Positions 26,628-38,277 of a DNA stretch of 64,000 bases are shown piece by piece. Origin of the DNA: Heliocybe sulcata (lineage: Eukaryota > Basidiomycota > Agaricomycetes > Gloeophyllales > Gloeophyllaceae); the NCBI GenBank assembly GCA_004369045.1, contig ML213507.1, positions 765,361 to 829,360 of the forward strand, written 5' to 3'. The translations under genes and the position numbers were made by a program. Position 1 is the first letter of the stretch. Each line of letters starts with the position of its first letter. Under the pieces are notes generated by a model. The model was not told the DNA's origin, ran no database searches, and saw only the letters and a program-made list of their open reading frames with translations.

Positions 26628-26899
26628 AGCTCAGTGCAATGGGCATATAAAGGAGCGCGAAGTATCTTATTCTTATGTATGCTTGAAGAATGACAAGGGA
26701 ACTGTAGACATCAGTATCTGTCCAGAGCTGCGGGAATGAGCACATTCATACAACTGCACGTTGAAGTCTCACCACACTGGCACAAAGGGACGAGCATATG
26801 GACCAGTCCTTCTTGGAAGCGGGAGAGTTCGAGTGTCCATCCAAATGCAAATGCACAACAGTGAAGAAGCCGAACAATATTAATTCCAAAACGAATAAG

Positions 26900-29800
26900 T
26901 TACCGCCGGAAAATCCGGATGATCCTCTGGCACCACGACACAATCGTCTCCTCCACTTGCATAATCCACGCCCAGACCTCTTCGAGGACAGCGTCGATCC
27001 CACCGCGATCATCCCACGACTCGCTCTCCTGCTTCTCAGTCATCATGAAGCGCAAGACATCTTTGACCGTGACGAGTCCCACAAGCGTTCCTCGGTCCTC
27101 TACCAGTATGACGCGAGGGCTGAAGGGCCGGGCATCAAGCTAAGATCTGGTAGGAAGCGAGGAGAGACTCACCCAAGTCTCTTGAACATTTGCATCGTAA
27201 TCTCCAGCGGAAGTTGAGGAGAGACAGTAATAGGCGTCTGGTCGGTATCGTCAGTTCCTCGCAATTCGTGGTATGCTAGACATACTTACTTGATTCACCC
27301 ATGGCCAGAGATTGAGAACGTGGTCTGACGCCGTGCTATGGATGATCTCTTCAGCCGAGTCTTCGTCGAGGCCAATGGCAGGTGCGGATGTGATCCCGAG
27401 GGTATCCAACTGCCCCTCAGCGTTCCTCTCCGCAGCGAACGAACATGGGGTTTGCAGAGAAACGCGCCGCATTTGCTGAGCCTTGTCTGAGGGAAATGAA
27501 CACGTCAAGATTGCATGCACCGAGTAGGAGCAAATCAACAACAATCACCTATCACATAACGTAGCTCCGGCCTTCCTATATACCCAACTAAAGTGCGGGC
27601 AGAGGCGGAGGATACAATAGGATAGCCCTGGACTTTCGTGTCCACCAGAATCCGTTCTGCAGCGCAAGTCATTACTATCCTGCATATCGTGATCGACTAC
27701 ATACTCACCAAGGTCTGCCACAGTTAACCCGGAGACAGACAAGGTATGAAGGTCGGTCGTCATGACCCGTGACACTGCAGGTACTTAACGCAGAAACCTC
27801 AGGTTTCATAGCAAACACATACCTGACGCATTGAACGCATGATCCTCTTTCTCTAGGAACGGGAACCCGTTGAACCGTATCATCTCGTCTGCGATGCCGC
27901 GTACATTCAAAAAGTCTCCTACGGCTTTTGTGACCAACAGGACGATCTGGCCGACACTTGTGAGAGACAATCAAAGGGAGTGAGAGACACGGACGCACCA
28001 TAGTCGGCAAGATGTATGTGAGGGCACCCGTCAGCTCGAACATAATGACCACGACAGTCACGGTGATCCGCATGACGCCGCTGCAGGACCGTCTCCATCA
28101 GCCGCCGCGCAGCTAAAGAGGTGCATACGTACCTCAGCGCAGCTGCAGCTCCAAGAAAGGCATACGTGCCCGGTGTGATACACGGTACATCAGGCTGGCA
28201 GAAGGCAAATATACCCGATGTCGGATATGCCCTGTGGATCGAATCAGGTTTGAGCTTCCGGGAAGCTGGAGGCAGCTCACTGATACATCGCTTTGACCAT
28301 AATCCCGACCATTCGCCCGAACGTCGCCCCGATGGCCATGGAAGGGACGAAGATACCAGCGGGCACCTTGGCGCCGTACGAGATCACGACGAACCCGATC
28401 CGGATTGCAGTAGCCAGAAGCAAGGAGTTAACCATGGGCCACTGGAATGCCGATCTGTACATGCACGTCCAAAAACTCGCAAGCTATGTTGGAATGGAAT
28501 AACGCACTTGCACAAATTATCGTAATCGCCGCCGCTCTCGCATTCCCGGAACAAGATGGCCATCATCTCCGTCATGTCGACGCGCAGGAATCGGTTGAAG
28601 TAGCCAACCATGGCAGTGAGCGTGGCGAGCGTGACCGCTTCGGCTACACCGTGGCTCGCGAGGTGCTTCCGGCGGAACGCAGCAACTTGAAGGTTGAACT
28701 TCACCATGAACGCGCCGTATAGACCCTTTGTAATATCTGAAGGTCAGTTAAAGTGCATGTATATGCCATGCGTACTTACACCGAAGATACCGAGGATGAC
28801 AAAGAAGATAATCTCGAAGAAGTGCCAGTCCCTGTCGTAGGTGACCTGGAACAATACGAGTTTGCCCGTCCTGAAAGGATTCATTGCCTACGCCACTGAT
28901 GTCAGGACCTCGAGGCAATGTCTACGTAGTTTGGCTTACAGATAACGTCACGGTTGCGACTAACGCGCAGAAGAAACTACGCCACATTGTTTTTATACTG
29001 AATGTATGACTCATTTCCTATTCAAAACCGTGTCCAACGTCGTGTAGTGAAGTACGTAAGTAAGAGCTTACCTCGATAGAAAACAGCACTCCGCCAATCG
29101 GTGAGCCGAACGCCACCGCGACCCCTGCTGCGCTCGCAGCAGTCAGGATCTCCCGCTTCTTGCCTGACAATATTATAAATATTAGGTATCAAAGCAAACG
29201 CATAAGCTTACCTTCACTACGCGAGAATCGACTAGACAGGCTGGCCATAACATTGCCAATACAACATGCCACATGAACCGAAGGACCTTCTTTCCCGACA
29301 GACAGGCCTGATGCGATGACTAACGGCTGCCAGGAGTGAGTGGAAGCACAGCGCGGCACAGAAAATAGACGTACTAGAGTCAGACTCTTGATGAGAAGCG
29401 TCACGAGCCCTAGGAATCCTTTCATTATAAACCCTGCTAAGATACATTTGATTTCTGATATTCCTGAACCCGCAGCATATTTCGCCAAGGACCTGACAAG
29501 ATGTGCTGCACCAAAAGAGAACATGCTCTGGGTGAAGATGAGTGGGAACACGAATATCGGCTGACTTGCGACGCACCGCGAAGAGAACGTAGATCAACCA
29601 CCTGGCAGCCGTGACGGTACTCCATGGATGCCAGGAATCGCACGGATTGTCTTCATCCCCTTCCACTTCCCAGCAGCAGAATTGTTGGTTCAGCCACCAT
29701 CCGTCGGAGCAGTAACCCATCTTCAAATCGGACAGCCATTCCGTGATGACTGATATTAAGGCGGCATTGACCCCGATACCGATACCTTCACGCAAAGTTA

Positions 29801-30406
29801 GACGATACACGAGACAAAGCAACGTCACAGTACGCACCTACAAGGGTAACCACGAACCAACTTTGGCCAGCATGCAGGACATGCCTGAGCTTTGACCATA
29901 GCCACGCAGCAGTAACCTCTCCTCGAGGTCCTCGACGATGCAAGTCCGCCTCTTGGTTCGCCCTAATCCGTCTATTCCGTTCGATAATCGAGTCCTGTAT
30001 CCAGTCTGTTGGGATGGCCACCGCTCGAACTCGTCGACTTCCGTACTAACAATGGTAGTTCACGCGCCTATGGTAGTGAAGTCTTCATAATTCCTGACGA
30101 AATATTCAGCATACGTGCGAGCTTACGGACAAATTAGACTCACTTGGTATGGTAGAATTCCTCGTCCTGAATGTGTCCATTGAGGTCATCCATGAACGGA
30201 GCATGCGAATGCCCGACTCGACGATCTCGCGTGGGGAGGAGAGCTAACACCTTCTCCGTGTGGCGGTGCAATCTCGCATCTTCCTGCCTGCCATCTGACA
30301 CTGACAATCACGTTGAACTTGGGCGAGAGAGTGGGAATGGGTATAAATACTGGGGATCCGAGTAGGATGCGTCTGACGACGAGCGCTCCTTCCTGCTATC
30401 TATCAT
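26900..30406 (-). CDS. CLC chloride/proton transporter
   Basis: Many exons encode a CLC protein of intracellular type (Gef1, CLC-3/5 branch). Visible motifs are FTTIDWIQDS before the first helix, [20 protein letters not shown] with the gating Glu, [13 protein letters not shown] with the second (proton) Glu position, and [17 protein letters not shown]. Two CBS regions close the protein, the last containing [15 protein letters not shown]. Having both glutamates favours a 2Cl-/H+ exchanger of Golgi, endosome or vacuole membranes. The conserved FTTI/DWIQ junction requires a GC-AG intron (30006-30067). The N-terminus is uncertain: an exon starting at 30406 and a 63-nt intron fit in frame, but Met at 30193 is a conservative alternative. 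If 30406 is right, the start overlaps that of the SDR gene. Confidence 0.92.
30342..30349 (+). promoter_or_regulatory. TATA box of the SDR gene
   Basis: A perfect TATAAATA lies 56 bp upstream of the SDR start codon. On the other strand the same bases are part of TATTTATA right after the proposed first CLC intron donor. Confidence 0.55.
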
Positions 30407-31825
30407 GGCGACAGTCTCAGACGAGGGTCTCCTCGCTTTCAGCAGCACGGCCAGAGACCAAGTGGTCCTGATCACTGGTAAGTAAACAGTGTACAAATGT
30501 GAGGAAATGCCCTTCTGATAGCCACATGCAGGGGGAGCTAAGGGCATAGGAAGGGAGGCAGCTGTTCTATTCGCCAAACATGGGTAAGGTCCTATCCATT
30601 TAGCTGGGCCTCACAATCATACTGAATCCCCTTAGCGCGAAAGTTGTCATCGGAGATATAGATCCAAATGCCGGCCACGATGTCGTAGACACTATCACGC
30701 GGGATGGAGGGTGCGTCTTAGTATCCCTCGGTACCTCCGTAGTATCCTAATCTTCAGATAGGGCAGCCATATACCAGAGATGCAATGTTCTGGAATGGGA
30801 TGACCTCGTCTCCCTATTCGAGAAAGCTATTGAAACATATGGACGTGTCAACTCAGTGGTAGGACCATTTCACTGGGATCTGCATGGCATTGCGCTGACA
30901 ACGAAATAGCTTCCGATAGCTGGAATAGCCACCGAGAAACCGTTTCCTAACATAGAGGTAGTGAACGGACGACCCGTCAAGCCCCAATTAACCACCCTCG
31001 ACATAAACCTCAGAGCTGTCATGCATAGTATGTCTTTAAGCCCTACTGTATAAGTTAATAGTTATAGACATCTCTCTTCAGCGACGCATATTGCATTTCA
31101 CTACTTCAAGAAAGATACGGCGGAGAGTGGTATGAAGTCCATAGTCTTTATGGCATCCATGGGTGCGTAATACCTCCAGTTTCTCCTCGCGCCCACTCAA
31201 CCGACACCGCGCAGCTTCATGGCAAGGGATCCCCGGCGTAGCCGAGTATAGCGCTGCTAAGCACGGAGTACTCGGGTTCATGAGGGCGATAGAGCCTATT
31301 TCCCAACTACAGGGCATCCATGTCGCTTCGGTTCATCCCTGGTTCGTCGGTACGTATAATTGTCATCTCTCCGAAACGTGTTAAGTGATAAATTTGAATT
31401 CAATGCAGATACCACGCTACTCCCCCTTGTGGTGAAGACAATCCTAGCCGGCATACCCAAAACACCCGTCGAGCGCGTCGCGTACGCGGTGTTCTACGCT
31501 GCAACCAACCCTGACTGGGCGAACCAAGGCAGCACGCTCCTCCTGCCCGACGACGGTCCCGTCCTACGCCTCAACAAGGAAGAGCTCAAGGAAGGCGTAT
31601 ACGGAATCATCAACAACCGTGCCCAGAGGGCTAAGCGGTGATTGCTGCCTCATTTAGTAGCGATGAACGAGACTGATTAATTGATTTTGCAGCACTGGCG
31701 AAGCTATACTCTCGTTTGCGGCCACCCTACGTGACCTGTGGAAGATCTTTGGGAAGGGCGTCATGGTGGCCATGTTATGCGCAGTTGCCGCGAGATGGGC
31801 CAGAGCCCGCTATCTTCGATCATGA
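30405..31825 (+). CDS. Short-chain dehydrogenase/reductase, tail-anchored
   Basis: About eight short exons starting [12 protein letters not shown]. The nucleotide-binding motif TGGAKGIG crosses the first intron, VVIGDIDPNAG gives the acidic strand-2 end (Asp favours NAD+), and the active site has VFMASM and YSAAKHG (Tyr and Lys). The usual NNAG motif reads LPIAG. After the domain, a last exon adds a hydrophobic stretch (GVMVAMLCAVAARWAR), a probable C-terminal membrane anchor. It resembles 15-hydroxyprostaglandin dehydrogenase-like fungal SDRs; the substrate is unknown. The gene is divergent from CLC with overlapping start codons, and its TATA box lies at 30342-30349. Confidence 0.88.
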
Positions 31826-32765
31826 GGCCTATGCGAACAAATATTATACCAGAAGTTACTACACCTATTGCAGCAAGCAAGGTAAGATATAGGGAGGTGC
31901 GATTGGTTTCGGATGACAAGTGTACTTAACCAGATGGATAGCATCTTCCGTCCTCGGTACCTATGCGAACATCCTGGGTACTCCAATCCTCGCCGCCTCG
32001 CGAAGGGAGACCGACTGATTAGCTCTGTTGAGAGCCGACTCTTCCATCGGCTTGTCCATTACCAAGCTTGGATATCATCGGTGAATCCGTCCAACCAATT
32101 CGCTGAAGCATTCTGTGGGTACTTTACGTCGGCTGCGGCATCGTGAAATAGTCTCGGCACATGTACGGCCACATCCTAAGAAAGCTCCCTTTTCGGATTT
32201 CCTGCACAGTTGTCAAGACCAGGACGTCCCGATGTTAACCACTGCTGTGCCATCCGCTCGGACTGCTCCGTAATAAAACAGAAGCATAAGCGCCTACAGT
32301 TCGAGGTACCGCCCTCAACAAATATCTGGAATATATCTACGTGTACTTAGCCGCAATATACTACCAGTGGGAACTCTTGAGCCTACGTGACGCGCAGGAA
32401 GACAGAGATTCAGTACTCAGTACTCAGTACTCCGATCTCAAAGTGTGAAGGAACGCCGAAACAAGCTCCAACCAATCCCAGATGCCACTTCCGCGTCTCG
32501 CTAAACAATCGCTAAATAAAGTAATTCTGGTTTCGCTTCGCCGTGCGGTTGCTGCTCTCCTTCTCCTCGTCGTCGCCATCGACATCGCACGCCCAGGCCA
32601 GTGATGGAAGGTCTCTCCCGAATAACGCCAGGTCGGGCGGGTCTACTGCCATTTCCCAACAACGTCGTCACCGGCCCCGAAAGATGATGTCACCTCCCTC
32701 ACCCATATAATCGGACAATTTTCTCCATTTCGCTCGTTATTCTCAACGGCGAGCTCGACGTAAAA
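31826..32765. other. Intergenic spacer
   Basis: No coding frame can be supported. A perfect triple direct repeat of CAGTACT lies at 32411-32431. The right end must hold the promoter of the membrane-enzyme gene. Confidence 0.4.
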
Positions 32766-36204: not shown

Positions 36205-37208
36205 TCAGAGCTCGAGGTGCACGAAAGGCGAAGGCTGCACGAAGCCCGGAGACGCGGCAGCAAAGTCGTTGGCCCTTGCGACCATCAGAAGTCCAACTGC
36301 ACATACAGTCAGTCAGCACGCGGCCCTGAGCTTCAAAAGTGTCTATCAACGCACCAATTAACCCAAACAAGCCCAGGATACTGCCGAACACCTCTACGAT
36401 GAGGATCTTGACGAAGAGGTTGGGGTCCGCAGCGTCGGCGAGGGCTGCGGTCGAGCCTGTGACGCCGACGCAGATGCCGCATAGGAGGTTGCATGCGCCT
36501 ACTGTCAGGCCGCCCCAGAAGAGAGCGTAACCTACCATATTGCACTGCTTTAGTGGGCGTGAGGAGGGAAAGAGTGAGCCAAGTACCAGTGAAGTAGTTC
36601 TCGCGGGTGTAAATCTGCGTGTCGGGAACTTGGGCGAGCTTTGCAGAGTAGACAATGCCGATGATCTAATGAGGTTTTGAAGGGTCATGAGCTATAGCAG
36701 GTGGTGACCGGAGGCAGGAAGGATACGCACGACACCGTAGATTGCTACGACTTCGCAGAAGATGATGCTGCGTCGCTGTTAGCTGGGATTGACTATTACA
36801 GGACTATGTAGCTACGCACCTAATAAGATTCTTCGTCCGTATCCGGGGAGCCCTAACACCACCTCCGAGGATTGACGCTCCCGTCACGAAGATGCCCCTG
36901 TACCAAGGACACACATTCATAACCTCGTCCTTAAGAGGAGACAGAGAGTACGCACCATCCAGCTCCAAGCACGCTCAACCCGATACAGAGACCAATACCG
37001 GTCGCCGCCCACGCATAGGGACTGGACTCCTCGAGGAACCTGCCGACGTTGAACGCCTCTCCCGAGCCTGCACCAAACCTCGTTCCTCAGTAGTCGTCGC
37101 AACGCACGCTCTCGCATAAGACTGACCGGTGAAAAGCAGATATAGGGCAACGACAAGCGCTATGAAGGTCGGGAGCCCGAAAGCATAGTAGTTGGCTAGC
37201 AGGCCCAT
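36205..37208 (-). CDS. VMA16: V-ATPase proteolipid subunit c'' (Vma16)
   Basis: At least five exons. Visible parts: [20 protein letters not shown] (first span), [40 protein letters not shown] with the membrane-buried Glu expected in c'', [17 protein letters not shown], and [17 protein letters not shown] then [19 protein letters not shown] at the end. The protein is part of the rotor ring that carries protons through the V-ATPase in vacuole and Golgi membranes. Length and five-span layout fit Vma16 rather than c or c'. The start at 37208 ([10 protein letters not shown]) is provisional: in-frame codons upstream (YSPPLATF) suggest one more short exon. The gene is head to head with ARFRP1. Confidence 0.92.
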
Positions 37209-37308
37209 GAACGTCGCGAGAGGTGGAGAGTAACCTGCAATGAATTGCCGGCGCTAATTCGGGCTGCGTCACGGAGCTTCCCGCCACAACGCGCTGTTGT
37301 TCGCAACT
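37209..37308. promoter_or_regulatory. Compact bidirectional promoter, VMA16/ARFRP1
   Basis: Only 100 bp separate the chosen start codons. It includes coding-like codons for the missing VMA16 N-terminus, so real promoter space is shorter still. No TATA box is seen. Confidence 0.5.
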
Positions 37309-38277
37309 ATGTACCATCTGCTGAAGGGATTGCACGAATATTTAACGAGGTATGCTGGCTATTGATTCTTCTCTCTTGCTATTCATACTCTCGTGCAGAA
37401 AAGAAGAGTTCTCAGTAATAATTATTGGTTTGGATGGAGCAGGGAAGACGGTCCGTGCTTGGAATCTTTTATGCATACCAAGTAATGACTTTAGGACGCA
37501 TAGACCTTGCTGGAGAAGATAAAAACGCTCTACAATGATACACCTGGACTCCCTGCCGACAAGATCGCACCTACCGTCGGGCAAAACAGTGCGTGGAGTA
37601 ACTCCCCGCATGTAGCTGGGCTTAACGTGTGCAGCCGGCAAGATCACCCTTCCATCCACAATCCTGCAATTCTGGGATCTTGGCGGTCAGAAAGGGATTC
37701 GGTCCATCTGGCATCGGTACTACGATGACTGCCATGCCGTTGCGTACGTGATCGATGCCTCTGACCGCGAGAGGTTGAGCGAAGGATGGGAAGTGTTCGG
37801 TATGTGCAGTCCCGCGTGGCCGTATGGCATCAGGCCTCGTGCTAACATGACTCCTATGCAAGGAACCTAAGACTCCGTCCTGTCTAACCGCCAGATCCTC
37901 GGTGTTCCTCTGTTGCTCCTCGCGAACAAACAAGACAGCCCGGACAGCCTGTCCGTGGAGGAAATCCGGCACGACTATGAAGAATGGCACCAGCGGAAGC
38001 AGGAGAGTGCGCGGATACGGTATGCAGAGGAGATGGAGATGGAGGGGCGCAGAGAGCGCATCGCTAGTCTGGACGTCATGGGCGTATCGGCGCTCGAGGG
38101 GTGGGCTGCATAATATTCATACTTCCAGTGTTCTTACCCTGTTAACAGTACTGGTGTACGCGAAGCTGTCGACTGGCTGTTCATCCGAGTTCAGAATAGT
38201 AGACGTCGGTATGTCCTAGGTTCCTCCAATGCATGCATTGCGGTCCTACTAACGGTTCCGACAGCGAGGATCAATGA
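37309..38277 (+). CDS. ARL3: ARFRP1/Arl3-type small GTPase
   Basis: Several short exons. The N-terminus MYHLLKGLHEYLTR matches ARFRP1/Arl3, which is N-acetylated on a Met-Tyr start rather than myristoylated. GTPase motifs are complete: GLDGAGKTT (P-loop, split by an intron), the switch-I Thr in APTVGQN, WDLGGQ (switch II), and NKQD (guanine). The C-terminal helix is REAVDWLFIRV. A charged insertion of about 30 residues (HQRKQESARIRYAEEMEMEG) precedes the final SALEG motif. The protein recruits Arl1 and golgins at the trans-Golgi, linking it functionally to the GARP tether encoded nearby. The last intron is a textbook 56-nt intron with CTAAC branch site. Confidence 0.93.

Follow-up and report, generated by a model that had tools for sequence, protein, structure and literature searches.

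A compact divergent CLC/SDR gene pair in Heliocybe sulcata and the position of the CLC start codon

Two adjacent genes in Heliocybe sulcata, one coding for a CLC-type exchanger on the minus strand and one for a short-chain dehydrogenase (SDR) on the plus strand, face each other with their 5' ends, and the question raised by this locus is where translation of the CLC gene begins. The initial annotation proposed that the CLC gene starts at position 30406 with an exon joined to the rest through a 63-nt intron, that its ATG shares two bases of a CATG with the ATG of SDR, and that this could couple or exclude the two transcripts. With the splice at 30350/30287, the CLC transcript would begin inside the SDR gene, and the 5' ends of the two transcripts would overlap. 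This arrangement is quite possible but falls short of an even chance, and a reading in which CLC starts at 30193 leads it narrowly. The window analysed, a stretch of 64,000 nucleotides, sits on a 1.54-Mb contig of an assembly of 31.6 Mb in 51 contigs. The 1001 bp spanning the CLC/SDR junction had a single match in the assembly. Its genes are rich in introns, in keeping with a fungal source. The two genes are as follows.

26900..30193, minus strand: CLC-type Cl-/H+ exchanger gene, 19 exons and 783 amino acids if the start is at 30193
30405..31825, plus strand: short-chain dehydrogenase (SDR) gene, 9 exons and 330 amino acids, from the gene finder
30006..30067, minus strand: GC-AG intron of the CLC gene (TAG/GCGCGT), required for the conserved TTIDW (TIDW in CLC-3)

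Splice sites and conserved blocks guided the manual assembly of the CLC exons. The long model, which includes the proposed exon 1, comprises 20 exons and 19 introns and encodes 833 amino acids in a complete frame that stops at 26900. In the PDB the protein matched CLC-3 (E 7e-156), which covers residues 60-680 and 730-788 of the long model with TIDW conserved, whereas residues 1-59 have no CLC-3 match. The Voltage_CLC domain (PF00654) was found at 272.7 bits against a curated cut-off of 24.8, and a CBS domain (PF00571) is present. Judged by these matches, the minus-strand gene is a real gene for a CLC-3-like Cl-/H+ exchanger. Gef1 is the yeast relative of exchangers of the CLC-3 type. The GC-AG intron at 30006-30067 was accepted because the conserved TTIDW block demands it; it has no branch-site match, and its score of -6.99 is the lowest of the 19 CLC introns. 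GC donors occur in 13 of the 426 introns in the training set from which CLC and SDR had been removed. At the exon end at 29577, an intron of 16 or 37 nt was dropped in favour of a 49-nt intron (29576-29528).

The plus-strand protein carries the adh_short domain (PF00106) at residues 19-214, with 121.4 bits against a curated cut-off of 26.6, and contains the SDR motif TGGAKGIG. It differs from the family in having about 115 residues beyond the domain match. Ten PDB matches at E 1e-18 or better began at residues 12 to 19. By these homologies, the gene is a real short-chain dehydrogenase/reductase gene. Its start at 30405, as annotated initially, was supported: this is the sole in-frame ATG after the upstream stop, and every gene-finder run for which the local genes were listed chose it, with and without SDR in the training set.

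The gene finder was home-made and combined a three-periodic fourth-order coding model, matrices for donors, acceptors and branch sites, and intron lengths. It was trained in rounds on 264 kb, the window included. Its seed set comprised 18 CLC introns placed by hand (all but intron 1), long open frames, and the coding part of CLC minus exons 1 and 2. The later rounds used no starts or donors from 30100-30480 and treated 30194-30404 as non-coding. The output comprised 99 genes, 74 of which scored above 10. The hand-built CLC exons from 26900 to 30193 are identical to those of the finder, which had itself been seeded and trained with the CLC gene.

The features that bear on the 5' end of CLC are listed below.

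30191..30193, minus strand: CLC start codon picked by the gene finder, equal to M51 of the long model; the CLC-3 match begins at residue 60
30194..30287, minus strand: open frame upstream of the 30193 ATG, either 5' leader or coding; 31 residues, within a stretch (30307-30194) that has a faint coding signal, and with an alignment to a paralogue on contig C4
30288..30350, minus strand: proposed CLC intron 1, 63 nt, with a weak donor, a weak acceptor and no branch-site match
30351..30406, minus strand: proposed CLC exon 1, unproven, with its ATG at 30406-30404

As letters, the overlap of the two start codons is as described initially: positions 30404-30407 read CATG, with one ATG on each strand (30406-30404, minus; 30405-30407, plus). 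The minus-strand frame is open from 30406 to a TGA at 30310-30308, and a GT..AG stretch of 63 nt (30350-30288) joins it in frame to CLC, as had been claimed, where the frame is open for 31 codons before M51. A 100-codon open frame (30308-30610, minus) runs antisense to the first two exons of SDR and the intron between them; it contains a further ATG, at 30547, to which the same splice pair is open.

The initial annotation had taken the reading frame as support for the N-terminal exon. The in-frame join itself was found, but its evidential weight is small in view of the chance rates. When the 210 bp between the ATGs were shuffled with dinucleotides kept, 251 of 400 shuffles gave an in-frame route from 30406 into CLC, whether through an intron or directly; in 80 of the 400 the score equalled or exceeded that of the real join. 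At 9 of 71 predicted genes, CLC included, some extension further upstream came within 2.28 nats of the start that the finder had picked (three of the 74 were left out for N or for nearness to an end). CATG stands at 33 of the 74 predicted start codons, each thereby creating an antisense ATG that overlaps by two bases, and in 11 of these 33 cases, counting the CLC/SDR locus, the antisense frame is open for at least 32 codons.

The splice sites of intron 1 scored poorly. The donor (CCA/GTATTT) has no G at +5 and ranks among the weakest 7.8% of trained GT donors. The acceptor ranks among the weakest 14.7%, and no branch site of the CTRAY type is present, the best word being AGTTCAA. The total of -3.38 is the second lowest among the 19 CLC introns; of the other 18, 16 scored 0.63 to 5.88 and two scored -1.37 and -6.99. 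After its ATG, exon 1 had a coding score of 0.25 (0.5 in the leave-out check described below), and the start context was -0.78 at 30406 vs 0.87 at 30193. On the other side, the N-terminal 48 codons of the long model scored 3.13, a value between the 10% point (2.88) and the 25% point (4.49) of the first 48 codons of other predicted genes. In an enumeration of upstream routes with an ATG and a single intron, 11 were found, and the splice pair 30350/30287 gave the best two; however, it scored 1 nat better with the ATG at 30547 than with that at 30406.

The gene finder started CLC at 30193, and this choice was unchanged when a 2-base overlap was allowed or when introns were made up to 3 nats cheaper. 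The 30193 start exceeded exon 1 plus intron 1 by 2.28 nats. In the leave-out check, CLC and SDR were removed from all training and 26800-31900 from the non-coding set, leaving 72 genes and 426 introns. The starts were still placed at 30193 and 30405, and the gap fell to 1.51 nats; the CLC gene was split in two, and several of its exons and the GC-AG intron were missed. The finder is uncalibrated for start sites, and its verdict on the 5' end is taken as a lean and not as proof, because the leave-out run breaks the CLC gene and leaves a gap of only 1.51 nats. Of the claim that CLC starts at 30406 via exon 1, the letters and the in-frame join stood, but neither the start codon nor intron 1 was confirmed.

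The neighbourhood of each start was inspected for other ATGs. Three of them (30294, 30279 and 30204) stand in the roughly 100 nt that precede 30193, which counts against a start there; the one at 30204 is in another frame at a distance of 11 nt. Of 72 predicted starts, 9 have an ATG among the 14 nt before them, compared with 19.5% of 5000 random places. The start at 30406 has no ATG within 100 nt upstream, and intron 1 would remove the ATG at 30294; both points favour the exon-1 model.

A faint coding signal was also seen immediately upstream of 30193. The stretch 30307-30194, open for 38 codons, scored 2.08, which lies between the coding and intergenic controls: 7.2% of 3000 random open intergenic stretches reached this value, and 13.2% of 856 coding stretches were at or below it. 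The score thus leans slightly to coding. The remaining two frames scored -4.4 and -4.5. The part at 30253-30194, where there is no in-frame ATG, scored 2.79.

Two further CLC genes were found in the same genome by a Pfam search, on contigs C4 and C8. In a protein search, the C4 gene was matched at E 0.27 with 30% identity over query residues 7-69. This paralogue aligns through TIDW and further upstream, with a 12-residue block before M51 aligned to RQRPISAYDAPL, and the 31 residues before M51 lifted the alignment score from 58 to 69. A score of 69 was reached by 40 of 2000 shuffles and by 21 of 2000 random open intergenic stretches. Under five scorings, the real value was reached by 16, 3, 282, 1 and 56 of 1000 shuffles (0.1% to 28%, depending on the matrix), and by 106, 30, 347, 11 and 160 of 1000 when the upstream part of C4 was shuffled. 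The C8 paralogue gained nothing from the residues before M51 under any of the five scorings. Aligned alone, without the downstream block, these residues gave nothing with C4 (977 of 1000 shuffles reached the score) or with C8 (140 of 1000). Exon 1 added no further gain to the paralogue alignment, and this counts against the model that includes it. A 151-aa CLC query without exon 1 gave no confirmed relatives in virus contigs or in bacterial and archaeal contigs (1 and 19 pattern matches).

The C4 alignment is therefore suggestive of coding upstream of 30193, not of exon 1 itself. If there is such coding, the splice pair 30350/30287 is the best route found, and the alignment to residues before M51 would then speak for the start at 30406. 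The same alignment, together with the signal at 30253-30194, would also fit another N-terminus, reached from a further upstream exon, through two introns, from the ATG at 30547, or from a non-ATG start in the open frame 30307-30194. Nothing points to one specific alternative among these, the 11 enumerated routes being those with a single intron and an ATG, and we consider this explanation improbable.

A further explanation combines both starts. Alternative transcription start sites (TSSs) could produce a long CLC isoform from 30406 and a short one from 30193, with differing cytosolic N-termini that could alter sorting. Both starts are open here. In Cryptococcus, the use of alternative TSSs that shorten N-termini is reported to be widespread (PMC11302930), and ribosomes there are also reported to reach in-frame ATGs further downstream by leaky scanning (PMC7049704). 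Against this, exon 1 is weakly supported by itself, and there is little probability that two such isoforms are made.

The region between the start codons contains a candidate TATA box for SDR.

30342..30349, plus strand: candidate SDR TATA box TATAAATA, 63 bp before the SDR ATG
30194..30404, no strand: interval between the start codons at 30193 and 30405, 211 bp, probably holding the promoter of one gene or of both

By its sequence and position, TATAAATA is a plausible TATA box of the SDR gene. Between 120 and 30 bp ahead of the start codon, the motif TATAWAW occurs at 9 of 74 predicted starts, compared with 4 of 74 in a control interval, numbers too small to prove more. The TATA motif of Cryptococcus genes is placed 40 to 35 bp ahead of the TSS (PMC11302930). 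Carried over to TATAAATA, this spacing would put the SDR TSS near 30377-30389; on the preferred reading the SDR transcript should begin near 30375-30390, with a predicted leader of about 15-30 nt. Two ATGs (30337 and 30367) precede the SDR start codon, and the predicted TSS falls downstream of both.

The box was read at 30342-30349, within 30350-30288, and thus inside the proposed CLC intron 1, as the initial annotation had noted. Its further statement that each promoter lies within the coding exons of the other gene fails for the TATA box, because the box is intronic on that very model. No CLC promoter was identified.

We tentatively prefer, at somewhat less than an even chance, the reading in which CLC is translated from 30193 only and SDR from 30405, and in which the intervening 211 bp contain the promoters of both. 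Both genes would then draw on this shared interval. SDR would use the TATA box at 30342-30349, whereas transcription of CLC would be TATA-less and begin at some point in 30200-30340, so that an overlap between the CLC and SDR transcripts is not required. The minus-strand ATG (30406-30404) would be merely a palindromic shadow of the CATG at the SDR start.

Whichever CLC start holds, CLC/SDR is a compact divergent gene pair of a known kind. The genes are adjacent on opposite strands, CLC starting at 30193 (or 30406) on the minus strand and SDR at 30405 on the plus strand, with their 5' ends facing at less than 1000 bp, a limit that is defined on TSSs and was applied here to start codons. As in bidirectional-promoter pairs, the start codons are 211 bp apart or closer, and a TATA box lies between them or just inside one gene; the pair differs in that its coding regions would overlap by two bases if exon 1 is real.

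Divergent pairs were collected from adjacent members of the set of 74, and any pair separated by N was excluded. The 23 predicted pairs had start gaps of 21, 28, 100, 211 (CLC/SDR), 255 bp and upward; 10 of the 23 were below 500 bp, and four, CLC/SDR included, were at 211 bp or less. The pair with 100 bp between start codons lies at 37208-37309. The putative pairs with gaps of 21 and 28 bp lie on the same contig to the left of the window (window coordinates -180510/-180488 and -169614/-169585). When a 2-base overlap was allowed, one other place in the 264 kb took it, a predicted divergent pair at window coordinates -88028/-88029, also to the left, which is a possible second case.

The arrangement had been called unusual in fungi. 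For the spacing, this is doubtful: close divergent pairs are common here, and among cis antisense transcripts of Ganoderma lucidum, which are non-coding, divergent overlap was the commonest class (614, or 37.7%; PMC5515960). In the titles and abstract beginnings surveyed, an overlap between the start codons of divergent genes was not described for Agaricomycetes, which does not prove its absence.

In its strongest form, the exon-1 model would have a true two-base coding overlap in the CATG, with CLC transcription starting inside the SDR gene and the SDR TATA box spliced out with intron 1. The promoters would then interfere, such that activity at one gene would hold back the other or would move CLC to a short N-terminus. 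This combination is rather unlikely.

In summary, the CLC/SDR pair illustrates clearly how tightly fungal genes can be packed. It also carries a caution for annotation: nearly half of the predicted genes here start with CATG and so have an antisense ATG overlapping their start codon, and chance readily supplies an in-frame splice into the neighbouring gene. If the overlap is true, the locus would offer a natural setting in which to test whether the promoters of two protein-coding genes interfere.
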